DNA of 52,190 nt from a virus. The notes under the pieces were generated by a model. That model saw nothing but the letters and a program-made list of their open reading frames with translations, was not told the DNA's origin and searched no databases. A program made the translations under genes and the position numbers. How positions within the stretch are numbered: the first letter of the stretch is position 1; each line of letters starts with the position of its first letter. Below, in pieces: positions 5,319-38,467 of the stretch. Location: positions 1-52,190 of IMG/VR virus record IMGVR_UViG_3300037493_003077. One strand, given 5' to 3'.

Positions 5319-6071
5319 TCAACTCCAGTTATTTACTAGTAATGCTAGATCCTGTGAGTTTACGATTCCATCGTTATTGATGTCGTGTGGATTAGGTTTA
5401 AAGCTAGCAGCTCCCCAATCAGCAAGCAACTCACCCATATCCTGAGCATTTACCAATCCATCATTGTTGAAATCACCTTGCACGGCAACTCCAACGGTGG
5501 TATTGGTAAGAGATCCTGTGACAACATTTCCACCAACGCAGCAACCATATACGATACATTTCGCTGGGTATTGTGGATTCAGAGGTAGATTGTCATGCAG
5601 AATAACCTCTGATCTACCCAATCCAACTACCTTGAAGATAAATTTTGCCATCTGAGCAGGTTCGGTAGTTACAATCCATTCATATCCAAGAACTCCGTAG
5701 CAGTAAAACATTCCATTGCCATCTTGGGGTGGTACTACTTCGTTACATAAAGTATAGTCGTTTGCAGGAAAGGTAGAATACCCTTGCATGACTCCCACAT
5801 GGGAACCAACCAATGATACTCCGAGTAGTTGAAGTCTGGTAGGATCCCATCCAAAGGGAACATCGGCGACCACGAACCGCTGTGGATTGTTCTCAGCTGA
5901 TACCATGAGTTGTACCTCAATGATATCATCTATCGCCACAGACTGTTGTGGAGTCACTAGCGAGAGATTCAATTTAGCACTTGGATCGTTCTGCGCAAAA
6001 GACATGCTTGCTAGGCATACTGAGAAGACAAAGAAGAGAAAGAATGATTTGATGTACTGTTGTAGTTTCAT
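5319..6071 (-). CDS. Exported dockerin-like protein with cohesin-like N-terminal domain
   Basis: This 250-residue protein begins with a clear Sec signal peptide (residues 1-26, cleavage after SFA-Q). Residues about 33-180 form a beta-rich region resembling cohesin-like or Ig-like modules, with six Cys/Cys-pair residues. The C-terminal 55 residues hold two dockerin-type calcium loops: DFNNDGLVNAQDMGELLADW and DINNDGIVNSQDLALLVNNW. Such paired loops at the extreme C-terminus are very common in exported Planctomycetota proteins and unusual for phage genes. A TATAAATA late promoter lies 17 nt upstream of the start, with an AGGAAAGGAAA ribosome site. The role is unknown. It could be a cell-surface protein made late in infection, or a captured host gene. 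The dockerin assignment is strong; the N-terminal domain assignment is weak. Confidence 0.8.
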   Translation of the reverse strand: MKLQQYIKSFFLFFVFSVCLASMSFAQNDPSAKLNLSLVTPQQSVAIDDIIEVQLMVSAENNPQRFVVADVPFGWDPTRLQLLGVSLVGSHVGVMQGYSTFPANDYTLCNEVVPPQDGNGMFYCYGVLGYEWIVTTEPAQMAKFIFKVVGLGRSEVILHDNLPLNPQYPAKCIVYGCCVGGNVVTGSLTNTTVGVAVQGDFNNDGLVNAQDMGELLADWGAASFKPNPHDINNDGIVNSQDLALLVNNWS

Positions 6072-13543: not shown

Positions 13544-14695
13544 TCAACCAAATAGGTTTTCTAATGTATTTTTCTTTTCAGTTGACCACCCAATAGTATC
13601 TAGAATGGCGGTCAGAGGATCAATAAAAGATTTTTCAAATTGAGTTTTATAATCAATATATTTCTCAAGTTCAAATTCTTTTGGAAGAACATTTGGAAAA
13701 GAAATAACCTGATCTTCTCCAATGCAACCACCAACAGGATTTGGTTTCTTGAGCATTAGAAATTTAATCTTATCTCCTTCAATAATCTTCCTATATTTCT
13801 TACCAATCTTGAATTTAGCAAGATAATGATTATAAATCAAAGCACCCTTTACGGCAATAGGTGTTGATTTTTTATAAATTGCAGAACGATCAATATATTT
13901 TTCCAATCCGTTGACGCTACGAGGAAATGCGATATCCTCTGGAGGCAGTGCGTAAAATTCGTTACGACACTTCTCAACAAAGTCTATCATATCCTGCGAA
14001 GTGCCATTCATGGTAATATTGATAGCCTTCTTGAGATGCTTACGGACAAACTCTGGAGTTGACGAACGAGTCGTTTCAATTCCCATGATCTTGAGTTTAG
14101 GTTCTGCATAGCGTACACCTTCAGAATCCCAAACATTCAACATATACCGTTTCTTGGCAGTCCATATTCCCTTGTCGGCAATGACTTCCCGACCCATCTG
14201 CATCTTGTTCTCATATGCATTCATGGTGAGTGCGAGTTCAGCAAACTTCTTCTCAATGAATGGAATGATCGCTTGTTCCGCAGACTTATCTAAGAAATCA
14301 ACTACAGTCTTTGTCGGTGGTCGCGAAACTGGTTTTCCATCAAAAAGACCTGTATTTGGAAATACCTTCAAGACTAGATTATTGAGACACAGATAAACAG
14401 AATCTGTATCGGATGCAATCACATAATCCACATCGGTAGTGCCAATGATCTTGTTGAGATATTTGTTTAATTCCTGACCAATCCATTGAATTGACAATTG
14501 ACCCGATAAAGTAATCGCCTCTGCGAGTTCGGTAGAATAATATCTAAAATATTGGTTCCCTATCGCACCGTAAGCGGAGTTTAACTGAATCTTGCGAACC
14601 AACTGAAAGTTATGATACTTGGAAATATCATGTTCAGTTTGTTTCTTCAGTGCAAGCAGTTGGGCATTGGTGAACTTGGAGTAGTCTTTTGACAT
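13544..14695 (-). CDS. 43: Family B DNA polymerase, C-terminal half (split gene 43)
   Basis: This 383-residue protein is the polymerase part missing from the ORF at 17319-18800. Residues 35-52 hold motif B (KIQLNSAYGAIGNQYFRYY), whose Lys, Asn and Tyr contact the incoming dNTP. ASDTDSVYL (residues 94-102) is motif C with two metal-binding Asp. The thumb follows, and the C-terminus TLENLFG resembles the clamp-binding tail of T4 gp43. It begins with an independent ATG preceded by AAAGGA 8 nt upstream, and its first 30 residues look like the second helix of the fingers domain. The exonuclease domain and motif A are absent here. The two halves must associate to give an active enzyme. It overlaps the end of the 83-residue gene upstream by 49 nt. 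Confidence 0.95.
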   Translation of the reverse strand: MSKDYSKFTNAQLLALKKQTEHDISKYHNFQLVRKIQLNSAYGAIGNQYFRYYSTELAEAITLSGQLSIQWIGQELNKYLNKIIGTTDVDYVIASDTDSVYLCLNNLVLKVFPNTGLFDGKPVSRPPTKTVVDFLDKSAEQAIIPFIEKKFAELALTMNAYENKMQMGREVIADKGIWTAKKRYMLNVWDSEGVRYAEPKLKIMGIETTRSSTPEFVRKHLKKAINITMNGTSQDMIDFVEKCRNEFYALPPEDIAFPRSVNGLEKYIDRSAIYKKSTPIAVKGALIYNHYLAKFKIGKKYRKIIEGDKIKFLMLKKPNPVGGCIGEDQVISFPNVLPKEFELEKYIDYKTQFEKSFIDPLTAILDTIGWSTEKKNTLENLFG

Positions 14696-14999: not shown

Positions 15000-15665
15000 T
15001 TATTTTGTTCCCAATTGCATTCGTATTAGTGCTAAAATTCTACTTTGAACGGATGCTGGATGTGTTGGGTCTGAAAAATGGTGTGTTTCACCTTTAATTT
15101 CAGGCCATTGACCACCAGCACGGGGGTTTGGGTCGGGCATTGTTCTCAATTCAGAACCAAGGCGTTGGCCCAAAGGCGTATCTCTCTTAATCACACCTTT
15201 GATGTTGTTTCTAAATCCAAGTAGGTTCAAATAAACATCTCTTCTAGGTCTTTCACCAAAAGACCCAGTTGGATCTCTTGGTCTATCTGGGTTTCTTCTG
15301 TCCCAATCTGCCTGTATTGATTCTTTACTGTCAATATGTCTTTGTTTTCCCAAAATATCAACAAGAAGATTCCTTATTGCTGTTTGTTTTTTTGCTGTTT
15401 GCTGTGGACTATCCCAGTGACCAGACAATGCTCCATGTTCGGCATATTCAATTGATTTTTTTAATTTTTCTGGATCTTCTTCGCCTTGACCAGATTCAGC
15501 AGCACCAAAACGAATTCTTAAATTTTCAAGATTTCTTGATTCTTTTCTTTTTTTGCGTTCTCTTTGCTGCGGAGTCACAAACTCTCTGGGTCTAGACCAT
15601 TCTAGAATATTTTTTTCTGTTTCTTCTTTTAAATTTAAAAATATGTGTTTAAATGTTTTCATCAT
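15000..15665 (-). CDS. Unknown basic protein inside the split polymerase locus
   Basis: This 221-residue, highly charged protein is rich in Arg, Lys, Glu and Pro and has no recognised domain. The N-terminus MMKTFKHIFLNLKEE resembles the start of many small T4-type head-packaged or virion proteins, and LKE matches the LxE pattern cut by the T4 prohead protease, but this is only a pattern match. The C-terminal third (DPNPRAGGQWPEIKGETHHF, then a helical end) might be a DNA-binding or toxin-like fold. No catalytic set is evident. A TATAAATA late promoter ends one base before the first ATG, so it is either a leaderless late gene or is translated from readthrough of the upstream gene, whose stop lies 4 nt away. 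Confidence 0.65.
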   Translation of the reverse strand: MMKTFKHIFLNLKEETEKNILEWSRPREFVTPQQRERKKRKESRNLENLRIRFGAAESGQGEEDPEKLKKSIEYAEHGALSGHWDSPQQTAKKQTAIRNLLVDILGKQRHIDSKESIQADWDRRNPDRPRDPTGSFGERPRRDVYLNLLGFRNNIKGVIKRDTPLGQRLGSELRTMPDPNPRAGGQWPEIKGETHHFSDPTHPASVQSRILALIRMQLGTK

Positions 15666-15666
15666 C

Positions 15667-15674
15667 TATTTATA
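15667..15674 (-). promoter_or_regulatory. T4-type late promoter (TATAAATA)
   Basis: A perfect octamer on the minus strand directly abuts the start of the 221-residue gene and overlaps the stop codon of the 80-residue gene upstream. Confidence 0.5.
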
Positions 15675-15912
15675 ATTTTTGCTTCCACACGCCATCCACG
15701 ATAAATCCATATGATGAGGTTTCATCTTCTGGAAATTTAGCAACCGTATATGGTTTGGTTTTCTTGGTCGTGAGGAGATTATTCAAGTCATCACATTCGG
15801 TGACCGCACTAGTCTTCTTCTTAAATGCCAAAACGCCCTTACGGGGTACTCCCAAGGAGTCTTTCAGGTTGTCGTCAACAAAGTTGTTCAGTTTGGTCAT
15901 AATTCCATACAT
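15670..15912 (-). CDS. Unknown 80-residue protein
   Basis: A small soluble protein with no recognised domain. Its middle is Lys/Thr-rich and the C-terminus is YGFIVDGVWKQKL. The start overlaps the stop of the PEP-CTERM-like gene as TAATG, with GGAGGCGACGATA as ribosome site. The start region lies inside the 36-bp direct repeat. The second repeat copy at 16567-16602 carries the same ribosome site and the same first seven codons, so before the PEP-CTERM-like gene entered, this gene probably followed the tRNAs directly. Function unknown. Confidence 0.7.
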   Translation of the reverse strand: MYGIMTKLNNFVDDNLKDSLGVPRKGVLAFKKKTSAVTECDDLNNLLTTKKTKPYTVAKFPEDETSSYGFIVDGVWKQKL

Positions 15913-15927
15913 TATCGTCGCCTCCGA
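15892..15927. repeat. 36-bp direct repeat, copy 1 (downstream of PEP-CTERM-like gene)
   Basis: It matches 16567-16602 at 35 of 36 positions (the only difference is at 15921/16596). It encodes the final four Arg codons and stop of the PEP-CTERM-like gene, plus the ribosome site and first codons of the 80-residue gene. Confidence 0.95.
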
Positions 15928-16556
15928 ACTCCAATCATACCAGCAATCCCAATCAGCGCAATTGCCGATGGTGCGGGAACGAGTGCGTATTCAATGTTAT
16001 CAATGATAATCTGACTTGCGCCATTAGCACCAACATTAGTAGAATACACCTTGATCTCGGTGATATTGTTCAGAGGACCAGGATATACGGATTGCAGGTT
16101 AAGTTTCACCCGCTGTGCAGCAGCAATTTGAGCAGTGTAAGTGAATACTAATACGCCCTCTCCGTATCGGTAGCCTTCAATAATCACAGTCATTGGCGAC
16201 CAAGCGGAAGTCACCTCAAGACTAGACAGCCTCCACATTTCGTTTCTACTGATTCTGAAATTGTAGGAGGAAGTCGAACCGAACGGAGTCCAGATGGCAC
16301 GATCACCAATGATGCCCTCATCATATCCACCATATCCTGGTCCACCGACAAGATCGTAATACCACCACTTGTTTCCGCTAGCAGCATATGAACTGGTGAA
16401 GTTGAATCCTTCATAGTTGCTTAGAGGTTCGTAGTAAAATCCAAGTGGTGTCGAATAAATGTCCGTAAGTGTCGGCGCAGGAAGATTTTCAAAGGTGCAG
16501 AGTTCTGCGTGTGCCGAAGTTGCGAGTAGCGTTGTTGCGATTAGTGTCTTTAACAT
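15912..16556 (-). CDS. Exported protein with PEP-CTERM-like sorting tail
   Basis: The 214-residue product starts with a short Sec signal peptide (residues 1-17, cleavage after AHA-E). A Trp/Tyr/Gly/Ser-rich beta-sandwich-like body follows, resembling exported carbohydrate-binding or surface proteins. The C-terminus has all parts of a PEP-CTERM-type signal: VPAPSA, a hydrophobic stretch IALIGIAGMIGV and RRRR at the very end. In bacteria such tails are recognised by exosortase and anchor proteins in or beyond the outer envelope. No exosortase is present here, so the host would have to supply it. An AAGGAATAAA ribosome site precedes the ATG. The gene is flanked by a 36-bp direct repeat and lies between two tRNAs and the 80-residue gene, which looks like a recently acquired cassette. 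The PEP-CTERM reading is strong; the function is unknown. Confidence 0.85.
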   Translation of the reverse strand: MLKTLIATTLLATSAHAELCTFENLPAPTLTDIYSTPLGFYYEPLSNYEGFNFTSSYAASGNKWWYYDLVGGPGYGGYDEGIIGDRAIWTPFGSTSSYNFRISRNEMWRLSSLEVTSAWSPMTVIIEGYRYGEGVLVFTYTAQIAAAQRVKLNLQSVYPGPLNNITEIKVYSTNVGANGASQIIIDNIEYALVPAPSAIALIGIAGMIGVRRRR

Positions 16557-16566
16557 TTTATTCCTT

Positions 16567-16602
16567 TTTGGTCATAATTCCATACATTATCGTCGTCTCC
16601 GA
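16567..16602. repeat. 36-bp direct repeat, copy 2 (upstream of PEP-CTERM-like gene)
   Basis: 35 of 36 positions match 15892-15927, spaced 675 bp. On the minus strand it holds GGAGACGACGATAATG and the first seven codons of the 80-residue gene, which here run to an early stop just before the PEP-CTERM-like start. Confidence 0.95.
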
Positions 16603-16607
16603 TTTAA

Positions 16608-16680
16608 TAGGGATGGTGGGACTCGAACCCACACTGGAATCATTTTAAGTGATTTATCTCTGCCATTGGACTACATCCCC
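16608..16680 (-). tRNA. tRNA with UAA anticodon (nominal Leu, short variable loop)
   Basis: A 73-nt cloverleaf: acceptor stem GGGGATG/CATCCCT (one G-U pair), D arm with GTCC...AGAT (one mismatch), anticodon stem AATCA/TGATT around loop CTTAAAA, variable loop of 5 nt, T arm GTGGG TTCGAGT CCCAC, discriminator A, no encoded CCA. The anticodon is UAA, reading UUA (Leu). Normal tRNA-Leu has a long variable arm, so its amino acid identity is uncertain. It lies 5 nt after the tRNA-Gln. Confidence 0.8.
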
Positions 16681-16685
16681 AAAAA

Positions 16686-16756
16686 CTACCCCGCTTGGAT
16701 TTGAACCAAGAAAAGAAGCTCCAAAGGCTTCTGTGATACCATTTCACCACGGGGTA
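16686..16756 (-). tRNA. trnQ: tRNA-Gln (UUG)
   Basis: A 71-nt cloverleaf with perfect acceptor stem TACCCCG/CGGGGTA, D arm GTGA/TCAC, anticodon stem GAAGC/GCTTC around CTTTGGA (anticodon UUG), T arm CTTGG/CCAAG, and discriminator G. U1-A72 and G73 are glutamine identity elements. CCA is not encoded. It begins at the base after the SpoU methyltransferase stop codon, so it is processed from a shared transcript. Confidence 0.93.
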
Positions 16757-17302: not shown

Positions 17303-17330
17303 ATTATACCAGAAAACTTTACTTTGTCAA
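17303..17330 (-). promoter_or_regulatory. Strong sigma70-like promoter, leaderless start of SpoU gene
   Basis: On the minus strand: TTGACA (17325-17330), 16-nt spacer ending in TGG, TATAAT (17303-17308), then 6 nt to the ATG at 17296. Both hexamers are perfect. The -35 box lies in the last codons of the polymerase N-terminal half. No ribosome site fits before the ATG. Confidence 0.88.
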
Positions 17331-18800
17331 TGCCCTACGATTGAGTTCCTTAGTGATTTCCTCTAAATGTTTTTGCGATTCAATCATTTTATTTTTGAAT
17401 GTTTTACGCTCTTGATACATCGTATCCATGAGTTCTGGTAAGAATCCACGAATATCCTTGCGGTAGGTTGTCCCATTGGCAGCAACGGATAGATTCTTCT
17501 CTTTGAATTGTTGTATTAATTTAGTGGCAACAGCATCACCTTTGAGAATAGCATCTGGTGAAATAAGACCACGCACTTCATCGGGTGTGATTGTCTCTGT
17601 GGAAATATTATAATGCATGATGAGATGCGGATAAAGTGAATTCAAGTCAAAAGATACTACCCATTCGTGCATACCGACAAGAGGTTCCTTGACATAAGCA
17701 CCAGCATATTGCTCATCCTTTCGTCCCCTCTTCTTGGGAGGAATGACGATGTTCTTCTTGCTCAAGTAATTATAGATGATTACATCCCATGTACGAACCT
17801 GAGAGAAAACATCCTGAAAATTAACTCCTGCTGAATACGCAAGTGCCACAGAGAGTTCTATAAGCTTTAATTTCTCTTCCAATTTCTGAACGAGTTCAAC
17901 ATCTCGGATATTATATTGAATGAACTTCTGGAAATCTTTCTTGTAGAACTCATTCATACTCTCATATTCGTCATATGCCAACTTACGCTGACCCAATTCA
18001 ACATACGCGATATGATCAAGACGATAAGATTCCTGATTGACATATGTAAATGTCTTGTAGACTTCAAAGTAGTCAAGCATGGAGACTCCGATGATATCAT
18101 ACATCAGATCTTCCTTACCATTGCGAGTGATATACTTTTCCTTTAGAATACCCCAAGGAGAAAGCATCTTTGCTGCTTTATGTCCAAGAACCTTCTTGAT
18201 TCTCTTGATGAGATAAGGAAAGTCAAAGAAACGAATGTTCCAACCACTCACAACATCGGGATAATTCTTGGCAAAGTATTCAAGAAATTCCCTGAGCAGT
18301 TTCTGTTCATCTTGATATTCAAATACCTTGATATCAGTATCGCCAGGATTGAATATACCAAGACAGAAAGTTGCATTTCCGTGTTTACTGGAAAATACAG
18401 TAATTGCGATGATCTCTTCTTCAGGATCTTCAATTGAAGGCCATCCCTTTTCAGAGGTGGTTTCAATGTCAATATACATGATGTCTATCTGTGAAAAATC
18501 ATAGGAAATATCAGTTCCATATTTCTTATTGATGAACTGATATTCGGTTTGAATATCACCATGAATCTCAAAATTCGGGACATCAGCATACTTCTCAGAG
18601 AATTCCTTGTATGACTGATAAGAATCAAATGTCATTTCATGAACATACTGACCATGAATCGTAAGAAAATCAGTTTTCTTTTTAGACGGCAGATAAACGC
18701 TTGGAACATATTCTTCACTCCTATAGACAGTTATGCCATTCTCTTTTTCTGTATAAAGAATGGACTTGAAATCATAAAATACATTTGTATAGAAATTCAT
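17319..18800 (-). CDS. 43: Family B DNA polymerase, N-terminal half (split gene 43)
   Basis: A 493-residue protein with the N-terminal, 3'-5' exonuclease and first palm regions of a T4 gp43-type polymerase. Exo I is YIDIETT (D111, E113), Exo II lies at VVSGWNIRFFDFPYL (about 183-196), Exo III at YNIRD (296-300), and motif A at SFDLNSLYP (383-391, catalytic D385). The protein continues into the first fingers helix and stops at RRALTK. Motifs B and C are missing and occur in the ORF at 13544-14695. T4 gp43 has nearly 900 residues, and the two halves sum to 876, so nothing essential is lost. The break is in the fingers, between two helices, as seen in the split polymerases of some Aeromonas T4-like phages. 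The ORF overlaps the DUF1599-like gene by 4 nt. Confidence 0.95.
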   Translation of the reverse strand: MNFYTNVFYDFKSILYTEKENGITVYRSEEYVPSVYLPSKKKTDFLTIHGQYVHEMTFDSYQSYKEFSEKYADVPNFEIHGDIQTEYQFINKKYGTDISYDFSQIDIMYIDIETTSEKGWPSIEDPEEEIIAITVFSSKHGNATFCLGIFNPGDTDIKVFEYQDEQKLLREFLEYFAKNYPDVVSGWNIRFFDFPYLIKRIKKVLGHKAAKMLSPWGILKEKYITRNGKEDLMYDIIGVSMLDYFEVYKTFTYVNQESYRLDHIAYVELGQRKLAYDEYESMNEFYKKDFQKFIQYNIRDVELVQKLEEKLKLIELSVALAYSAGVNFQDVFSQVRTWDVIIYNYLSKKNIVIPPKKRGRKDEQYAGAYVKEPLVGMHEWVVSFDLNSLYPHLIMHYNISTETITPDEVRGLISPDAILKGDAVATKLIQQFKEKNLSVAANGTTYRKDIRGFLPELMDTMYQERKTFKNKMIESQKHLEEITKELNRRALTK

Positions 18801-28408: not shown

Positions 28409-29440
28409 TTAAATTATTCCTAATGCGTATAAAATTAATGGGGGTGTAAAAATATCACCAGTTCTACCATCATATGTAGAAACTCCAGCTAGTCCACCCC
28501 CAGCTCCAGATGAGTTGATTGTTATTATATTTCCAACAGAATTTATTGTAACATTGGTTCCTTGTGCCAATGTAACACCACCCGTAAATCCATTTATGGT
28601 CTGAACATATGAACCACTAATTGTTCCAGGTGTTCCGTCATTTCCTGTAGCACCTGTTGCTCCAACAACATATCCAATGGAGAATGATGCTCCGCGAATA
28701 CCAAAATTATCTACTGGTGATATCCATAAGAATCCACCAGAAAGACCAATTGCGGTATAACCAGATCCTGTAGCACCAGTATTACCTGTTGTTCCATTAT
28801 TACCAGTATTTCCAGTATTACCAGTGTTTCCTCTGATACCTGGAGAACCATCAGAACCAGTATTACCTGTATTACCTGTATTTCCTCTGATACCTGGAGA
28901 ACCATCAGTACCAGTGTTACCAGTATTTCCAGTGTTACCTCTAATACCTGGAGAACCATCAGTACCAGTATTACCAGTGTTACCTGTATTTCCTTGTATA
29001 CCTGGAGAACCAGTGTTACCTGTGTTACCAGTATTTCCAGTGTTACCTCTAATACCTGGAGAACCATCAGTACCAGTATTACCAGTGTTACCTGTATTTC
29101 CCCGTATACCTGGAGAACCATCAGTACCCGTATTACCAGTATTTCCTGTTGTTCCTAAAACATATCCTATAGAGAACGATGCTCCACGAATACCAAATCC
29201 ATCTACTGGAGAAATCCATAAGAATCCACCAGATAATCCTATAGCAGTATAACCAGATCCTGTAGCACCTGTATTTCCTGTGTTACCCGTGTTACCAGTA
29301 TTTCCAGCTGGTCCTGTTGCTCCTGTAGTACCAAAATTATCACCAACAATCAACCAAGCAGAACCATTCCAATTCCATTGAGTTCCGTTGAAAGTGTATG
29401 TTGGATTGAGGGCTGGATTTGAAGGAAAATCTAGTGGCAT
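28409..29440 (-). CDS. Collagen-like tail fibre (343 aa)
   Basis: The N-terminus MPLDFPSNPALNPTYTFNG, followed by a Trp-rich WNWNGSAW turn, is the attachment motif shared with the 557-residue fibre. Then collagen-like Gly-X-Y repeats of GNT, GDS and GIR type run through about residues 40-220. They are interrupted by two copies of the 32-residue [20 protein letters not shown] module, before and after the main repeat tract. A C-terminal domain contains a single VQTINGFTGGVTL turn. In other proteins such repeats fold as trimeric triple helices. An AATAAATA near-late-promoter sequence and no strong ribosome site lie upstream. Likely a distal or side tail fibre. Confidence 0.88.
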   Translation of the reverse strand: MPLDFPSNPALNPTYTFNGTQWNWNGSAWLIVGDNFGTTGATGPAGNTGNTGNTGNTGATGSGYTAIGLSGGFLWISPVDGFGIRGASFSIGYVLGTTGNTGNTGTDGSPGIRGNTGNTGNTGTDGSPGIRGNTGNTGNTGNTGSPGIQGNTGNTGNTGTDGSPGIRGNTGNTGNTGTDGSPGIRGNTGNTGNTGSDGSPGIRGNTGNTGNTGNNGTTGNTGATGSGYTAIGLSGGFLWISPVDNFGIRGASFSIGYVVGATGATGNDGTPGTISGSYVQTINGFTGGVTLAQGTNVTINSVGNIITINSSGAGGGLAGVSTYDGRTGDIFTPPLILYALGII

Positions 29441-29454
29441 GGTAGTTTAATTAT

Positions 29455-29790
29455 TTATTCCCAGAATATCCTCTGAACTATATCACACGCTTCTGCTCTT
29501 GTGGATTCTTGTCCATCCCAAACAACTGCGAGTATCTCTGCTTCTTTTTGATTTGATATTGTTCTTATTGCTTGTATTGAATCTTTAATCTGTTGTGTTT
29601 CTTCATCAGACAGCAATCCAAGTGCTGCGTTTCTTTGCTTATATTCTGGAACAGCAGTGGTAATAATTTCTTTCGCCTTTTTTCTTATATGCTGCAATTG
29701 ATAAATTACACAATTATTGAAATTTCGGTTATCAATAACTATTAGATTTCCTGTAACTGTATCATGAATATGTTCTTTAAATATTTTCAT
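29455..29790 (-). CDS. Unknown small helical protein between collagen-like fibres
   Basis: A 111-residue helical protein starting MKIFKEHIHD. The core (RKKAKEIITTAVPEYKQRNAA, then DEETQQIKDSIQAIRTI) resembles small chaperone or accessory proteins in phage tail loci, but I cannot name a family. The ATG at 29790 overlaps the stop of the large fibre as TGATG. The in-frame TTG at 29793 is rejected. Placement directly after the 1107-residue fibre suggests an assembly helper for it. No motif supports an enzymatic role. Confidence 0.7.
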   Translation of the reverse strand: MKIFKEHIHDTVTGNLIVIDNRNFNNCVIYQLQHIRKKAKEIITTAVPEYKQRNAALGLLSDEETQQIKDSIQAIRTISNQKEAEILAVVWDGQESTRAEACDIVQRIFWE

Positions 29791-32700
29791 CAAAGTATCC
29801 TAAATTGCATAGATGGACATACTATTGCAATCGCTCCACTAGCATCATCAACAAATCTTACATTTGTTGCAACAGCAGGTAATGTATAACCACTACCTTC
29901 AGATGCAGCTATTGTGTTGTTATAACCAGATAATAAATCTTTTGATCCAAAGAAAGAAACCGAAGAATTTCCCTTCAATCCTTGTGCGGTTAATGTTGGA
30001 GTGCTGTCAAATACAGATGCAATCCAATAATTTCCTGGATTTAAAGTTACAAATCCACTACCATTGGTTATAGATGTGTTTACTGTTCCAGAACTAACTG
30101 CTGTAGATGGTGTACTAAACATTCTATTATTAGGCATTCCATATAAATTAATGTCATAAATTCCCATATACACATTACCAGTGGCACTAGTAGACCAACT
30201 ACTTATTCTCAATCCCTGTATTGTACACCGAGTCTGTATTACTATTGGTGCAAAATAAATTCTTTGTGCGCGTACAGGTGCTGAAGATCCACTATTATAA
30301 TTAACAGGATGATACCATACATTAGCTCCATCTTGTGTATTTGCTGTAGTTCCATCTGGGTATGTAAACAAATTTGCACTAGAAGTCATTCCATAATAGA
30401 ACTCATACACATAAGCATTTCCAGTTTTACCATTTACTCCAGTAACACCACCAGCGAATGTAATATCACCAGTTGATCCATTGAACGAAGTTACGGAATT
30501 GTGAATTCCAACAAGTGTTGTAGACACATTTGGGAATGTTATTACTGATGCAAATGTTCCACCTTCAATTGTCACATCACCACCACTAAATCCAAGAGTT
30601 CTTTGTGTTATACCACCAGAAATCAAGAATCCATCATTTGCACTGGTCATTCCTAGAATAGTAGCAACTGTAGTTCCTGCGGATGCTGTAGTTAGAGTAA
30701 TTCCTATTCCAGCAAATAGAGTTGTTCCACTACCACCAGATGTAGAAACCGTTCCCCAATAAAGTCCAGCATCGCCTCTTGTCAGTAATGCTTGACCAGT
30801 AGTTCCATTTGATGCAGGGAATGTATATCCCCAACCAGATCCATAAAATTGTATAGTTGGAGCAGTTAATTTTAATTTAACATTTGATTGAACTGTAAAT
30901 GGTGATGTTCCATTATTACCAATATAGGTAGCAGAAACAGTTGATGAGTCTGAACTAGTATTAAATTCAAGATCGGTTGCGTTCAATGAGGATGAATTCA
31001 ATCCAGTTTCTATGATAAATATCTTTGCTGTTAATGCACCAAGACTTGGAACATATGTAAATGGTGTAGCGACATCATCAATATAAATGTAAGTATTTCC
31101 AGAACCTCCAGCAAATAATGGATAGAATGTTGATGATGAATTTGTTGATCGTATATCGGTTGGACCACATGCTCCAGTAGCACCAGGGTTTCCAGTATTA
31201 CCTGTATTGCCTGTGTTACCAGTATTTCCTGTATTTCCATTGTTTCCAGTATTGCCTGTGTTTCCAGTATTTCCAGTGTTTCCCATTGACCCAACAACAT
31301 ATCCTATAGAGAATGATGCTCCGCGAATACCAAAATTATCTACTGGTGATATCCAGAGGAATCCACCAGATAATCCTATAGCAGTATAACCAGATCCTGT
31401 AGCACCAGTGTTACCAGTGTTTCCATTGTTACCAGTATTTCCAGTATTACCAGTGTTTCCATTGTTACCTGTATTGCCTGTGTTGCCAGTGTTTCCAGTA
31501 TTTCCAGTATTTCCAGTATTACCTGTGTTTCCATTATTTCCTGTATTACCTGTGTTACCAGTGTTTCCTGTATTTCCTTGAACATATCCAATGGAGAATG
31601 ATGCTCCACGAATACCAAATCCATCTATTGGTGATATCCAAAGAAACCCACCAGACAGTCCAGCGGCAGTATAACCAGATCCTGTAGCACCTGTGTTACC
31701 AGTGTTACCAGTATTTCCCGTAGAACCTGTGTTTCCCGTAGAACCTGTGTTTCCCGTAGAACCTGCAACAGTTCCTACACTAGAAGATATTGTAAATGTA
31801 TTTCCTGTCTGAGTGATTGTTATAAACGATCCAGCAGAAATACCAACATTTCCAGTTTTTCCATTGAATAGAGCAACATAATCACCAGAGACTACTCCAC
31901 TCGGACCAGTTGCTCCTTGAGGACCAGGAATTCCTTTAAGGAATTGAACCCATTGAGAAGAATCTCCGTCATAAAAATAAGTGAGCAATGCTCCAGTATT
32001 GCTATCTAACCATTGATCTCCACCAGTTGGATTGGAAGGAGCAGTTGCACCAAAAGCAAAATTAACACCACCAGATGGACCTTGAGAACCAGCAGTACCA
32101 GTATTTCCTGTGTTACCTGTATTTCCTTGAATACCTGGAGAACCAGTATTTCCTGTGTTACCTTGAATACCTGGAGAACCAGTATTTCCTGTGTTACCTT
32201 GAATACCTGGAGAACCAGTATTTCCTGTGTTACCTTGAATACCTGGAGAACCAGTATTTCCTGTATTTCCTTGAATACCTGGAGAACCAGTATTTCCTGT
32301 GTTACCTGTATTTCCTTGAATACCTGGAGAACCAGTATTTCCTGTATTTCCTTGAATACCTGGAGAACCAGTATTTCCTGTGTTACCTGTATTTCCTTGA
32401 ATACCTGGAGAACCAGTATTACCAGTATTACCTGTATTTCCTTGAATACCTGGAGAACCAGTATTACCAGTATTACCTGTATTTCCTTGAATACCTGGAG
32501 AACCAGTATTTCCTGTGTTACCTTGAATACCTGGAGAACCATCAGAACCAGTGTTACCAGTATTTCCTGTGTTACCTTGAATACCTGAAGAACCAGTATT
32601 TCCTGTGTTACCAGTGTTACCTTGAATACCTGGAGAACCAGTATTTCCTGTGTTACCTCTTATACCTTGAACACCATCAGTACCTGTATTTCCAGTATTA

Positions 32701-33113
32701 CCAGTATTTCCTCGTATACCTTGAGCACCATCAGAACCAGTATTACCAGTGTTACCTCTTATGCCTTGAGCACCATCAGTACCTGTATTACCAGTATTAC
32801 CAGTTGATCCTAAAACATATCCTATAGAGAATGATGCTCCACGAACTCCAGTATTACTTACAGGAGAAACCCAAAGGAACCCACCAGAAAGACCAATTGC
32901 AGTATAACCAGAACCAGTAGCACCTGTAGAACCTGTATTTCCTCGTATACCTTGAGCACCAGCACCACCAGCAATTGCTGGACCCAATGGAGCAGCAACC
33001 AATACTGTGGATGGTAATGTGTTGTTGACTACTAAGTTATTAGCAGAACTCTCCGTAACAATTGTGTTCGGAGGAATTTGAGTTACTACCAGTATTGGTT
33101 TCTCTTCTGCCAT
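29790..33113 (-). CDS. Giant collagen-like tail fibre (1107 aa)
   Basis: The longest fibre of the window. An N-terminal domain of about 55 residues is followed by about 280 residues of collagen-like repeats in which [13 protein letters not shown] is iterated, then GNT/GNN repeats. Three copies of the 32-residue GYTA..GGFLWIS..GYV module break the repeats. A module similar to the 445-residue fibre (STFYPLFAGGSGNT and GWGYTFPASNG) follows near residue 690. The C-terminal 200 residues, with phrases such as SAPVRAQRIYFAPIVIQT, form a globular tip with Trp, Tyr and Gly that may bind the receptor. At DNA level the GNT runs are tandem 9-bp units prone to length change by slippage. Confidence 0.9.
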   Translation of the reverse strand: MAEEKPILVVTQIPPNTIVTESSANNLVVNNTLPSTVLVAAPLGPAIAGGAGAQGIRGNTGSTGATGSGYTAIGLSGGFLWVSPVSNTGVRGASFSIGYVLGSTGNTGNTGTDGAQGIRGNTGNTGSDGAQGIRGNTGNTGNTGTDGVQGIRGNTGNTGSPGIQGNTGNTGNTGSSGIQGNTGNTGNTGSDGSPGIQGNTGNTGSPGIQGNTGNTGNTGSPGIQGNTGNTGNTGSPGIQGNTGNTGNTGSPGIQGNTGNTGSPGIQGNTGNTGNTGSPGIQGNTGNTGSPGIQGNTGNTGSPGIQGNTGNTGSPGIQGNTGNTGSPGIQGNTGNTGNTGTAGSQGPSGGVNFAFGATAPSNPTGGDQWLDSNTGALLTYFYDGDSSQWVQFLKGIPGPQGATGPSGVVSGDYVALFNGKTGNVGISAGSFITITQTGNTFTISSSVGTVAGSTGNTGSTGNTGSTGNTGNTGNTGATGSGYTAAGLSGGFLWISPIDGFGIRGASFSIGYVQGNTGNTGNTGNTGNNGNTGNTGNTGNTGNTGNTGNTGNNGNTGNTGNTGNNGNTGNTGATGSGYTAIGLSGGFLWISPVDNFGIRGASFSIGYVVGSMGNTGNTGNTGNTGNNGNTGNTGNTGNTGNTGNPGATGACGPTDIRSTNSSSTFYPLFAGGSGNTYIYIDDVATPFTYVPSLGALTAKIFIIETGLNSSSLNATDLEFNTSSDSSTVSATYIGNNGTSPFTVQSNVKLKLTAPTIQFYGSGWGYTFPASNGTTGQALLTRGDAGLYWGTVSTSGGSGTTLFAGIGITLTTASAGTTVATILGMTSANDGFLISGGITQRTLGFSGGDVTIEGGTFASVITFPNVSTTLVGIHNSVTSFNGSTGDITFAGGVTGVNGKTGNAYVYEFYYGMTSSANLFTYPDGTTANTQDGANVWYHPVNYNSGSSAPVRAQRIYFAPIVIQTRCTIQGLRISSWSTSATGNVYMGIYDINLYGMPNNRMFSTPSTAVSSGTVNTSITNGSGFVTLNPGNYWIASVFDSTPTLTAQGLKGNSSVSFFGSKDLLSGYNNTIAASEGSGYTLPAVATNVRFVDDASGAIAIVCPSMQFRIL

Positions 33114-33116
33114 CTT

Positions 33117-33548
33117 TTATGCTCTCGTAATTTCTCTTGAGACTTCAAATGAACCTTCCATAAGTCTCATCACTTCATTGAGCGAGTTCTTTAATTCAAG
33201 ATCATAAAAATGCTTTCCATTTGGAACATTAGTCATAGTATCAGCATCAACTCTTAGGAATATTCCACCAGTAAATGATGCTGCTCCAGAAATAGAAGTA
33301 TTGAAACTAATTCCACCAATACCAGCAATTCCACTACCAATAGCAAATTCTCCAGTAATACCACCACCAGTAACACCATTTTGAGTTAAGAATAAAATAA
33401 CATTTGGATCTTTTGAGGATCTTCGGACTTGCATTCTTCCTGTAAAATTTCCAATATCAATTCCAGTTCCACCAGAAAATTTATAATGCAAATGCAACTT
33501 AAATGTTGCACCCTGATCTGCTTGTATATCGTACCGTGATGCTGGCAT
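33117..33548 (-). CDS. Baseplate/fibre-attachment-like beta-sandwich protein
   Basis: A 143-residue beta-sandwich-type protein that begins with PASRYDIQADQGATFKLHL and continues FTGRMQVRRSSKDPN, a pattern shared with N-terminal domains of baseplate upper or fibre proteins in many phages. The C-terminal strands (GKHFYDLELKNSLNEVMRL, EGSFEVSREI) complete the sandwich. In those phages this domain anchors receptor-binding proteins. No enzyme motif is seen. A TATAAATA late promoter lies 16 nt upstream with AACGGAGAAA as ribosome site, and the giant fibre follows after 3 nt, consistent with a late structural operon. Confidence 0.75.
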   Translation of the reverse strand: MPASRYDIQADQGATFKLHLHYKFSGGTGIDIGNFTGRMQVRRSSKDPNVILFLTQNGVTGGGITGEFAIGSGIAGIGGISFNTSISGAASFTGGIFLRVDADTMTNVPNGKHFYDLELKNSLNEVMRLMEGSFEVSREITRA

Positions 33549-33563
33549 ATAATTTCTCCGTTA

Positions 33564-33571
33564 TATTTATA
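33564..33571 (-). promoter_or_regulatory. T4-type late promoter (TATAAATA)
   Basis: A perfect octamer on the minus strand 16 nt before the baseplate-like gene and its GGAG ribosome site, in a 29-nt intergenic gap. Confidence 0.7.
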
Positions 33572-33577
33572 TAATAA

Positions 33578-34129
33578 TTATGTGTCTGCTGTACCTGTAA
33601 ATCCGTCTAATACCACACCTGCATTTGATTGATTACCAATTGTGAATTCATTGCTAATTGGATATCCTCCAAAAGGAGAACTCCACGCAAAATATACAAA
33701 AGCGACATAATCGTTATTATTGACGACAACTGTATCACAATCATCACTTGAGAATGCACCAGCGGCAGTAAATCCGTGTGTCATATCACACGGTAATCTA
33801 TATTGTGGATTGCCATCTATATCTTCATTAAAAGGATCAAATGTCAATCCAGCAGGAACTCCTAGACCTACAGCTTTAATATTATATAATGTAAGACCTT
33901 CTGGTAATGGGGTCGGTGATACACGATAAAACAAATAATTATTTGTGCCTCTAACCCAAGTAAAGCTTATTGTTATGGGTGAAGCAATACCAGTTATTCG
34001 TTGTTCAGATACAGTATGTTTTTGTTCAGTTGCATTATAAATAATATCTCCCCAATTAACTGATAGACTAGTGGATCCTTGAATTTTTATTGGTGTCAGA
34101 TAAGCAGGACGACAATTAGGAAGTATCAT
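33578..34129 (-). CDS. Unknown structural protein of the fibre locus
   Basis: A 183-residue protein, beta-rich, with Phe, Tyr, Trp and Pro and three Cys. Phrases such as PITISFTWVRGTNNYLFYRV, VPAGLTFDPFNED and FVYFAWSSPFGGYPI suggest a compact globular fold, perhaps a fibre head or tip. No collagen-like repeat, signal peptide or catalytic motif. It overlaps the 557-residue collagen-like fibre stop by 4 nt, so the two are translationally coupled and the product may bind that fibre. It is not recognised. Confidence 0.7.
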   Translation of the reverse strand: MILPNCRPAYLTPIKIQGSTSLSVNWGDIIYNATEQKHTVSEQRITGIASPITISFTWVRGTNNYLFYRVSPTPLPEGLTLYNIKAVGLGVPAGLTFDPFNEDIDGNPQYRLPCDMTHGFTAAGAFSSDDCDTVVVNNNDYVAFVYFAWSSPFGGYPISNEFTIGNQSNAGVVLDGFTGTADT

Positions 34130-35799
34130 CCAGTCAATCCTCCTGCCAGATTGAATGTATCGGTGGTATAAGAAATCAAACTTACAGCAGCATGTTGACC
34201 AGCAATATTTTTCTGATTCTGGAAACTATTGATTATCACACCACTAGCGGCACTTATTCCAACATTTCCAGTATTGAGACGAATAACTGTTGTTGTGTGA
34301 CCGATGGGCAATCCAGTAGGAACAGTAAGTGTGATTCCAGAAGTAGAATCCATGGTTATAATTTTGCCGCTATCTGATCCTAGCATAGTATAACTTGCTG
34401 TTTTGACATTGATTGCACCAGCTGTTATTCTATACCCAGAATCTGATGTGATACCAGAAGCAGAAATTCCACTATAAGAATTAAATGATCCAAATAAAGT
34501 CATTCCACCAGAGGCGGTGATGCCAGCATTGAATACTTGACGAACAGTAAAGGTATTTCCAAGATTGGTAAATGCCACATTTGTTATAGCACCTGTAGCA
34601 CCATTGATTGATGTAACACCTTGAATATTACCAGTTCTTCCATTGAATGTAATGACATAATCCCCAACTGGACCTGTAGCACCCGTGTTTCCCGTTGACC
34701 CAACAACATATCCTATAGAGAATGATGCTCCACGAATACCAAATCCATCTATAGGTGATATCCAAAGGAACCCACCAGACAGTCCAGCGGCGGTATATCC
34801 ATAACCAGTAGCACCTGTGTTACCAGTATTACCTGTATTTCCAGTATTGCCTGTATTTCCATTGTTACCTGTATTTCCTGTATTGCCTGTGTTACCCGTT
34901 GACCCAACAACATATCCTATAGAGAATGATGCTCCACGAATACCAAATCCATCTATAGGTGATATCCATAAGAATCCACCAGAAAGACCAGCGGCGGTAT
35001 ATCCATAACCAGTTGCTCCAGTAGCACCTGTGTTTCCTGTGTTACCATTATTGCCTGTATTGCCAGTGTTACCAGTCCCACCAGCACCACCAATAATAGC
35101 AATCGTATAGGTGTTTCCAGATTTGTTTAGAGTGATTCCAGAACCAGCAGAGATCCCAACAGCACCAGTACTTCCATTTATTGAAGCAACATACTGCAAA
35201 TTGCTATTCAGTAATGTTCCTGTGGTCGCTGGCAGAGTATGATCTAAATTTTCAGTCTGTGAAGCCTGTGGTTTAATGTTATTGTTATATGAAGTTTCAC
35301 TTCCATCAGATCCCTGTAGTCTGAGTGTAGCATTCGCTCCTGGCAGAACATTGGTTGCAATAGTCAGCAGTGCTGCTGCATTCTGAACTGTCGTGGCAGT
35401 TGATGCAAGAGTGGTGAGACTTCCACCAAAATAATTCTGTCCATTGTTCGAGGGATTGAATGATGCTATAGAAGATACAGTTATAGAAGCAGAGGTAATG
35501 CCAGCATTCATTACTTGTTTGACAGTAAATGTATTTCCAAGATTTGTAAATGCCACATTTATTATAGCACCTGTAGCACCATTGATTGATGTGACACCTT
35601 GAATGTTACCAGTTCTTCCATTGAATGTAATGACATAATCACCAACTGGACCAGTTGCTCCAGTATTACCAGTAGCACCAGTGTTACCCAAAAGTGGAGT
35701 AGAATAAACTGTCCACGAATCACCAGTCCACTTCCAAGAAGAAGTGCCAAAGGTATAAATGTAATTCAGTGCTGGGGATGGAGGGAAATCTAATGGCAT
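34126..35799 (-). CDS. Collagen-like tail fibre (557 aa)
   Basis: Starts MPLDFPPSPALNYIYTFG, then a Trp-rich turn, like the 343-residue fibre. Its collagen-like GNT repeats are interspersed with two copies of the 32-residue GYTA..GGFLWIS..GYV module. A module with [20 protein letters not shown] appears twice, near the N-terminus and again near residue 370, and once in the 877-residue fibre. The C-terminal domain includes a duplicated GIT pattern and ends with NLAGGLTG. A late promoter TATAAATA and AAAGGATAATAG ribosome site precede the ATG. Its C-terminal domain lacks Cys and Trp-rich binding surfaces, so a structural shaft plus small tip is likely. Confidence 0.88.
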   Translation of the reverse strand: MPLDFPPSPALNYIYTFGTSSWKWTGDSWTVYSTPLLGNTGATGNTGATGPVGDYVITFNGRTGNIQGVTSINGATGAIINVAFTNLGNTFTVKQVMNAGITSASITVSSIASFNPSNNGQNYFGGSLTTLASTATTVQNAAALLTIATNVLPGANATLRLQGSDGSETSYNNNIKPQASQTENLDHTLPATTGTLLNSNLQYVASINGSTGAVGISAGSGITLNKSGNTYTIAIIGGAGGTGNTGNTGNNGNTGNTGATGATGYGYTAAGLSGGFLWISPIDGFGIRGASFSIGYVVGSTGNTGNTGNTGNNGNTGNTGNTGNTGNTGATGYGYTAAGLSGGFLWISPIDGFGIRGASFSIGYVVGSTGNTGATGPVGDYVITFNGRTGNIQGVTSINGATGAITNVAFTNLGNTFTVRQVFNAGITASGGMTLFGSFNSYSGISASGITSDSGYRITAGAINVKTASYTMLGSDSGKIITMDSTSGITLTVPTGLPIGHTTTVIRLNTGNVGISAASGVIINSFQNQKNIAGQHAAVSLISYTTDTFNLAGGLTG

Positions 35800-35813
35800 C
35801 TATTATCCTTTAA

Positions 35814-35821
35814 TATTTATA
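35814..35821 (-). promoter_or_regulatory. T4-type late promoter (TATAAATA)
   Basis: A perfect octamer on the minus strand 15 nt before the 557-residue fibre gene, followed by an AAAGGA ribosome site. Confidence 0.75.
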
Positions 35822-35833
35822 GTTCATAACGAA

Positions 35834-38467
35834 TTACCAAGAGGAAATTGCTGCGCGTTTCCAAGTGTTTGTTCCAATGCAGACATAGATGTAGTTCGTG
35901 TCGTAAACAATGTCTCCCGTTGTACCTGTCGCACTAGCGGAGGTGGGAGTTAACTCGTAAAGTCTTTGACTACCTTGAGATGCAGCATTTAATGGTTGAA
36001 CCCATTGTGGAGAATCACCATCGTAGATATATACAAATTCAATTCCTGTGTTGGAATTCATCCACCTATCGCCAGTAGTTATACCAGAATTCGGAGCAGC
36101 AGATTGATAATAGAATATTGGTCCTTGGCCTGTAGCACCTGTGTTTCCAGTATTTCCTTGAACATATCCAATGGAGAATGATGCTCCACGAATACCAAAT
36201 CCATCTATAGGGGATATCCATAAGAATCCACCAGACAGTCCAGCGGCGGTATATCCATAACCAGTAGCACCTGTGTTTCCAGTGTTACCTGTATTTCCAG
36301 TATTGCCTGTATTACCAGTGTTTCCATTGTTGCCTGTATTTCCAGTATTTCCAGTATTACCAGTGTTTCCTTGAACATATCCTATAGAGAATGATGCTCC
36401 GCGAATACCAAATCCATCCACTGGAGATATCCAAAGAAATCCACCAGAAATACCAGCGGCAGTATATCCATAACCAGTAGCACCAGTAGTTCCAGTGTTT
36501 CCATTGTTACCTGTATTACCAGTATTTCCTTGAACATATCCTACACTAAAGGAAGCACCTTTAGTACCAAGATTATTTGTCGAACTAATCCAAAGGAATC
36601 CACCAGATATACCAATTGCAGTATATCCAGATCCTGTAGCACCTGCATTACCAGTATTACCTGTGTTACCAGTATTTCCTGTGTTTCCTGTGTTTCCAGT
36701 ATTGCCAGTATTGCCAGTATTGCCTGTGTTACCAGTGTTACCCTGAACATATCCAATGGAGAATGATGCTCCACGAATACCAAATCCATCTATAGGTGAT
36801 ATCCAAAGGAACCCACCAGAAATACCAGCGGCAGTATATCCATAACCAGTTGCTCCAGTAGCACCTGTGTTTCCATTGTTACCAGTGTTTCCAGTGTTAC
36901 CAGCATTTCCTGCATTACCAGTATTTCCTGTGTTTCCTGTGTTTCCCGTATTGCCAGTATTACCAGTGTTTCCCGTATTTCCTTGAACATATCCAATGGA
37001 GAATGATGCTCCACGAATACCAAATCCATCTATAGGTGATATCCAAAGGAACCCACCAGAAATACCAGCAGCAGTATATCCATAACCAGTAGCACCTGTG
37101 TTACCAGTGTTTCCATTGTTACCAGTATTTCCAGTATTACCAGTGTTTCCATTGTTGCCTGTATTTCCAGTATTACCAGTGTTTCCCGTATTGCCTGTAT
37201 TACCAGTGTTTCCAGTATTACCCGTAACAGTTCCTACACTAGAAGATATTGTAAATGTATTTCCAGTTTGCGTGATTGTTATAAACTCTCCAGCAGAAAT
37301 ACCAACTATACCCGTTTTTCCTGTAAATGAATTTACAATATTTGGTGCGTAAATATTACCAGTAAATGTAGCACCAGAAATTGGAACATTCACATTCATG
37401 ACTGTTGAATTGATATTTAAAAGGTTAGATCCAGTATTACTGACTCCGTTATAGATGGTAAAAAGTCCATCAGATTGATAAAGAAATGTATTAAATGTTG
37501 TCGTGGAATAATTACCCAATCTGATAGCACCAATTCGTGATTGACCTGTAGTGGAAACCTTTAATGCTCCAGTACTTGAATGTTGAACATATAATGGATC
37601 AACATTTGCTGTATTGTTTTGTATATAAACTGTAGCATTACTGAAAGAAATTCCAGATGTAGCACTAATACCAGAATTAAATACTTGAATAACACTAAAG
37701 GTATTTCCAAGATTTGTAAATGCCACATTTGTTATAGCACCTGTAGCACCATTGATTGATGTTACACCTTGAATGTCACCCGTTCTTCCATTGAATGTAG
37801 CGACATAATCTCCAACTGGACCTGTAGCACCAGTATTTCCTTGAATGCCTGGAGAACCATCAGTACCCGTATTACCAGTATTTCCTGTGTTACCTGTATT
37901 TCCTTGAATACCTGGAGAACCAGTATTTCCTGTATTACCTGTATTTCCTTGAATACCTGGAGAACCAGTATTTCCAGTGTTACCTTGAATACCTGGAGAA
38001 CCAGTATTTCCAGTGTTACCAGTTACACCTGCTGCACCTGCTGCACCTGCTGCACCTGCTGGGCCCACTGTTCCAGCATTTAATGGTTGAACCCATTGTG
38101 GAGAGTCACCATCGTAGATATATACAAATTCAATTCCTGTGTCAGAATCCATCCACCTGTCGCCAGTAGTTATACCAGAAGTTGGACCAGCAGATTGATA
38201 ATAGAATATTGTTCCTTGACCAGCAGTACCAGTAGTGGCAATTGTTATAATTCCACCAGTACCACTTAGAGTGATACCAGACCCCGCTGAGAGCGTGACC
38301 CCACCAATGAATCCGTTTATGGATATTACATAAGGACCACTAATACCACCAGAACCCCCTGTGCTAGTTCCTAGATCTAGTCTATCCCACGCGATGCCAT
38401 TATATGACCACACACGACTATTAACGCCGTGTGTGGTTCCTGAAATTGGATTTATTGGAAATGCCAT
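35834..38467 (-). CDS. Collagen-like tail fibre (877 aa)
   Basis: Begins [20 protein letters not shown], a relative of the PLDFP attachment motif. [24 protein letters not shown] module occurs near residue 105 and again near the C-terminus with few changes (shown in part). Between lie Gly-Ser-Pro/Gly-Asn-Thr collagen-like repeats, a module shared with the 299-residue protein ([26 protein letters not shown]), and five copies of the 32-residue GYTA..GGFLWIS..GYV module, each separated by 8-10 GNT/GNN triplets. The C-terminal 40 residues ([20 protein letters not shown]) form a small cap. A late promoter lies 16 nt upstream. It is the first gene of the fibre locus in transcription order. Confidence 0.9.

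Follow-up and report, generated by a model that had tools for sequence, protein, structure and literature searches.

T4-type phages are said, in work by Arbiol et al. from 2010 that PMC4177764 cites, to carry mobile regulatory cassettes (PeSL) in which small genes are shuffled at short common intergenic sequences. Loss of accessory genes is described as well. In T4-family phages of Serratia, accessory open reading frames and a tRNA cluster are deleted between direct repeats of 5-10 nt, most of the 5' borders lie in tRNA genes, and slipped mispairing has been suggested (PMC5449768); the cyanophage S-PM2 spontaneously loses about 9.5 kb of accessory genes in what is called the ORFanage deletion (PMC4503421).

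We have found that a PEP-CTERM gene (hereafter the PEP gene) of a T4-like phage is probably an accessory gene in a hypervariable slot, that the 36-bp direct repeat surrounding it is probably a duplicated gene junction, and that the gene is probably lost by general recombination. The locus resembles the Serratia case in that the phages are T4-like, small accessory open reading frames lie beside tRNA genes, and the deletion is probably of the generic direct-repeat kind; in Serratia, however, the repeats were 5-10 nt long and 6.5-10 kb were lost under laboratory selection (PMC5449768), whereas here a single gene is concerned, the repeat spans 36 bp of gene tail plus gene head, and the populations are natural. 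S-PM2 is likewise a T4-like phage that loses accessory genes spontaneously and keeps the remainder intact, but its loss amounts to about 9.5 kb and the paper nowhere uses the word "repeat" (PMC4503421). The locus fits losses of these types with no dedicated enzyme.

The window, by which we mean the whole stretch of 52,190 nucleotides analysed, is an IMG/VR record, from uncultured sequence, of a T4-like phage whose DNA polymerase has its best matches among GenBank phages in T4-like cyanophages (up to 57%). The features on which the argument depends are these:

13544..14695, minus strand: C-terminal half (383 aa) of the split DNA polymerase; T4-like cyanophages are its best matches among GenBank phages (up to 57%)
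15000..15665, minus strand: 221-aa gene without a family match; it too is present here and absent from the empty relatives described below
15670..15912, minus strand: conserved 80-aa gene, function unassigned; right edge of the slot
15892..15927, minus strand: repeat copy B (36 bp); native PEP tail (mismatch base G), followed by the start of the 80-aa gene
15912..16556, minus strand: PEP-CTERM gene (214 aa); hydrophobic N-terminal segment to AHA, beta-sandwich body, PAP motif, C-terminal helix, RRRR
16557..16566, minus strand: leader of the PEP gene, AAGGAATAAA, ribosome-site-like; directly abuts copy A
16558..16587, minus strand: stub frame MYGIMTKKE*, read from the sequence as a truncated head of the 80-aa gene
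16567..16602, minus strand: repeat copy A (36 bp); apparent PEP-tail remnant (mismatch base A), followed by the head of the 80-aa gene
16607..16681, minus strand: tRNA-Leu(TAA); left edge of the slot
16686..16756, minus strand: tRNA-Gln(TTG); upstream of the repeat and the PEP gene
17319..18800, minus strand: N-terminal half (493 aa) of the split family B DNA polymerase (T4-like)

About 2.6 kb thus separates the two polymerase halves and holds an RNA methylase gene, the tRNA genes and small genes. The order runs from the 493-aa half through a SpoU-type methylase, tRNA-Gln, tRNA-Leu, the slot, the 80-aa gene and small genes to the 383-aa half and a RecA-like gene, and both this order and the split of the polymerase are repeated in those relatives whose contigs extend over this part. 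Elsewhere in the window, positions 28409-38467 encode large collagen-like GNTGNTG repeat proteins, which are probably tail or fibre proteins.

What varies is the slot. The last tRNA gene and the 80-aa gene are separated by 19-20 nt in contigs L017 and L012-L016, by 695 nt in the window, by 702 nt in L035, which carries a PEP gene, and by 127-2468 nt holding differing genes in other relatives, so that the slot as a whole ranges from 19 to 2468 bp. The initial annotation had suggested looking among relatives for other genes in this position, and relatives do hold other genes there, or none. Unrelated small slot genes (in L003, L034, L037, L038, L039 and L053) have in common the leader GAAAACACACAATG or a close variant of it, a likeness to the PeSL cassettes; the window differs from these in that no stem-loop is present at the repeat and the shared leader is missing from its PEP gene. 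The shared leader may be a seam for exchange. In L038 a six-codon stub, MKKGWF*, comes after the leader, or a close variant, and directly upstream of the 80-aa gene. We also note an HNH-endonuclease-like gene between the slot tRNA genes of L035 (4063-4761), with a relative in L046; it might drive exchange at the slot. Downstream, the empty relatives have a different gene at the position of the 221-aa gene, which is absent from nine related contigs.

The two direct copies reported around the PEP gene in the initial annotation are indeed there and agree at 35 of 36 positions. They are the sole such pair in the 52-kb window, in which the exact 29-nt core has no third copy with up to 3 mismatches allowed (0 expected in shuffled sequences). 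On the minus strand the repeat reads TCGGAG[A/G]CGACGATAATGTATGGAATTATGACCAAA, the variable base being A in copy A, on the tRNA side, and G in copy B, at the gene end. As had been claimed, copy B holds the last four Arg codons and the stop of the PEP gene (CGG AGG CGA CGA TAA); the start of the 80-aa gene also lies within it, overlapping the PEP stop as TAATG. Each copy can be read as holding a GGAG ribosome-site-like motif and an ATG. The stop of the stub frame in copy A falls 1 nt upstream of the PEP start, and the stub is possibly a leader peptide. The leader of the PEP gene in the window is unlike that of its relatives, GAAAACACACA, and the predicted RNA fold at the repeat is no better than that of shuffled sequences, with no stable stem-loop. 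The predicted geometry also holds: recombination between the copies would delete 675 bp and leave tRNA-Leu, one copy of the repeat and the 80-aa gene.

Relatives of precisely this form, which the initial annotation had proposed seeking, exist. In five IMG/VR contigs (L012-L016, the empty relatives), tRNA-Gln and tRNA-Leu are followed by a single 36-bp copy and then by the 80-aa gene. These contigs are identical to one another over 2.7 kb, for which reason we count them as one population, and are about 95-97% identical to the window. When the window is aligned with L012 (identity of 95% across 2634 nt of the left side and of 93.5% across 261 nt of the right side), the left and right alignments overlap in L012 by exactly 36 nt, which are the repeat. 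The excision product predicted from the window agrees with all five contigs at 36 of 36 positions in the repeat, including A at the sole variable position, and the closest differences are 22 nt upstream of the 80-aa gene and 33 nt inside it; copy A is likewise identical to their single copy (36/36). The filled form thus has two repeats and the empty form one, as in a direct-repeat deletion. The PEP gene is found nowhere else in the 41-, 46- and 118-kb contigs of the empty phages, which rules out its relocation within them. A second contig with two copies was not found among those searched, a set from which the records nearest to the window may be missing.

The composition of the repeat becomes apparent from other PEP genes. 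The tail CGGAGGCGACGA is present in L002 and L011, both of which lack the repeat, and close variants occur in L003, L004, L007-L009, L035 and L049. The tail of L002 is GTTCGGAGGCGACGA, and a different gene comes next; L011 has an identical tail, which runs into a homologue of the 80-aa gene exactly as in copy B; and in L035 and L049 the sequence AAGGCGGCGACGATAATG stands at the junction of the PEP and 80-aa genes. L011, L035 and L049 are more distant relatives than the empty ones, and in all three the PEP tail is joined to the same 80-aa gene with no repeat. Because the tail is found in relatives without the repeat, it is, by sequence comparison, native to the PEP gene, and the repeat is best read as a junction of PEP tail (its first 13-16 nt) and 80-aa head (the remainder) that is present twice, rather than as a mobile-element signal. 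The idea that the repeat supplies the arginine end of the sorting signal is thereby reversed, the tail being the gene's own and conserved in relatives that have no repeat.

The same tail is visible where the gene is missing. The 15 nt upstream of the 80-aa start match the PEP tail at 14 of 15 positions in the empty sites, for which the random expectation is about 2e-8, and at 2-7 of 15 in relatives without a PEP gene at the junction. A degenerate RRRR-tail pattern, run across the fetched loci, matches PEP tails and empty sites only. We infer from the 14/15 match and from the confinement of the pattern that the empty sites are scars of a lost PEP gene that keep the last 13-15 nt of its tail.

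We propose, then, that the gene between the tRNA genes and the 80-aa gene in the split polymerase locus is an accessory one coding for an exported PEP-CTERM protein, and that relatives with an empty slot have lost its body and retained the last 13-15 nt of its tail, on which the 80-aa gene now has its ribosome-site-like motif. The loss would have occurred by general phage recombination or by replication slippage between direct repeats, with no dedicated recombinase, using 36 bp here and as little as 5 bp elsewhere, and the empty form would, on the favoured account, derive from a two-copy form like the window.

Several other accounts of the repeat have to be set against this one. The initial annotation took the 36-bp repeat to be the site that defines a mobile, precisely excisable unit. 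The predicted excision product does occur in nature, yet the repeat flanks the PEP gene in none of nine other PEP loci and appears in no other context either. In eight of these nine loci no flanking word above chance is found, and the exception, L035, has a 13-nt word, which falls within the HNH-like gene upstream and has nothing to do with the tail. The repeat is gene tail plus gene head, and elsewhere precise absence goes with far less: L005 has the order F11, PEP, F6 (numbered gene families), and in L053, whose flanks are 97-98% identical, F11 is joined directly to F6 with PEP exactly absent and only 5 bp (ATGAA) common at the join, which shows that a 36-bp repeat is unnecessary for precise presence or absence of the gene. 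Family profile searches identified no recombinase beside the PEP gene or the repeat, and the locus shows neither a recombinase of its own nor conserved ends at several insertion sites, as a mobile cassette would. We therefore regard a mobile unit defined by the repeat as very unlikely. The GGAG motif and the ATG of each copy could be explained if the repeat were a conserved element for regulation or for starting translation, employed ahead of both genes. The repeat occurs just twice in 52 kb, however, the sequence upstream of the 80-aa gene in other relatives is unrelated, the fold is no better than that of shuffles, and the ATG of copy A opens only a 9-codon stub. The unrelated sequence in relatives and the uniqueness of the repeat led us to reject this account, which we consider extremely improbable. 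An assembly artefact, in which two strains were joined through their common 36 bp, is conceivable in that filled and empty relatives may share a sample and a 36-bp word can, we suppose, confuse assemblers. A chimera would, however, give tRNA-repeat-80-aa or PEP-repeat-80-aa, not copy A joined to AAGGAATAAA and the PEP gene, and the two copies differ at one base; we give an artefact very little credence. It is also very unlikely that the repeat is a reversible on/off device with which phages toggle between filled and empty forms in one population; were this so, part of the progeny would export a carbohydrate-binding protein via the host exosortase and alter the surface or matrix of the infected cell.

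A more serious competitor keeps the scar and the slot of our preferred explanation and differs in direction. The clade would have lost the PEP gene, leaving the scar seen in L012-L016, and the lineage of the window would have regained one from a relative, with an illegitimate join of the left end inside the 80-aa head, which would account for the stub, a homologous join of the right end, and the repeat as a by-product. Two junction-forming events suffice for this, with the empty form as intermediate; donors with a PEP/80-aa junction are known (L011, L035, L049); copy A equals the empty-site sequence and copy B has the native G; L035 likewise has a truncated gene head fused to a PEP leader; and the 3' half of the 80-aa gene of the window, with the 221-aa gene, looks imported (13 of 119 positions differ). 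On the other side, excision from a two-copy form yields the empty sites in one step, including A at the variable position, and a near-identical donor PEP gene was not found, the best being about 70-75% identical, nor was the donor leader AAAAAGGAATAAAATG found elsewhere. Synonymous divergence from L015 is 0.25 in the 80-aa gene and 0.09-0.12 in its neighbours, but the surplus is concentrated in the 3' half; the 5' half, on the PEP side, differs at 3 of 124 positions (about 2%), no more than the left flank. Set against the L012-L017 pattern, this contrast between the halves has p = 0.06. With its 5' half undiverged, the right junction of the PEP gene bears no trace of a foreign donor, and regain would require a right crossover within a few tens of bases or a donor that was a close relative. 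Since divergence begins only in the 3' half, a single import of the PEP, 80-aa and 221-aa genes is disfavoured, and the 3' half and the 221-aa gene suggest a separate exchange. The evidence on direction comes down to one informative site, and the empty contigs to one population. Excision from a form like the window to the empty form is plausible, and we judge its chances somewhat better than even, ahead of loss followed by regain, which is possible and has perhaps a third of the weight. Simple excision does not account for the first appearance of copy A, which calls for a duplication or insertion of its own.

Lastly, the protein itself deserves comment. Bacterial PEP-CTERM proteins, which are linked to exopolysaccharide, are exosortase substrates, and the 214-aa protein resembles them in its hydrophobic N-terminus, short motif, hydrophobic helix and basic C-terminus; it differs in being phage-encoded and in having PAP instead of PEP (PMC1569441). 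Its C-terminal end, VPAPSAIALIGIAGMIGVRRRR, has a predicted helix at 198-213 followed by Arg and scores 17.7 bits against TIGR02595, the NCBIfam PEP-CTERM model (cut-off 16; 20.9 bits in a six-frame search), so that C-terminal motif, transmembrane helix and basic cluster occur together with a score over the curated one; its score against PF07589 (15.6) stays below the Pfam gathering score of 20.7. The N-terminus, MLKTLIATTLLATSAHA, resembles a signal peptide and is kept in relatives. In a structure model of modest confidence (pLDDT 69) the protein is a beta-sandwich with a C-terminal helix, and the closest solved folds are carbohydrate-binding modules (E ~1e-5, with a query-normalised TM-score <0.5), which is only suggestive of a carbohydrate-binding-module-like fold. 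Signal and modelled fold suggest that the protein is exported, that a host exosortase handles it and that it is associated with surface polysaccharide. No exosortase was found in nine phage contigs. Relatives of the PEP gene occur in other viral contigs at about 58-75% identity, in none of 50,697 GenBank phage records and not in PHROGs. The bacterial genomes that we scanned gave no match to the PEP gene and, with ribonucleotide reductase, matches in only two Patescibacteria, at 48% identity. Among the paper titles and abstracts retrieved, none described a phage-encoded exosortase substrate. Positions 5319-6071 of the window encode a protein of 250 aa whose start is signal-like and which has a dockerin type I domain (27.8 bits against 22.9); it looks unusual for a phage and gives only a weak hint as to the host. 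Weak matches elsewhere in related phages mark a diverged second PEP-CTERM-like gene of about 240 residues (L066 and L068, in the record of L053; L065 and L067, in the record of L048; and L032, in the record of L006).

The repeat was correctly seen in the initial annotation and its main prediction has been borne out, and the meaning is more ordinary, that of a junction duplicated at an accessory slot. The locus nevertheless offers a clean natural example of how small accessory genes come into and leave a fixed slot of T4-like phages: the two states and the scar can be seen at the level of single bases. The part most worth attention is the phage-encoded PEP-CTERM family. The protein is, to judge from its sequence, an apparent phage-encoded exosortase substrate, and with the host in hand, the idea that such a phage modifies the host surface or matrix could be put to the test.
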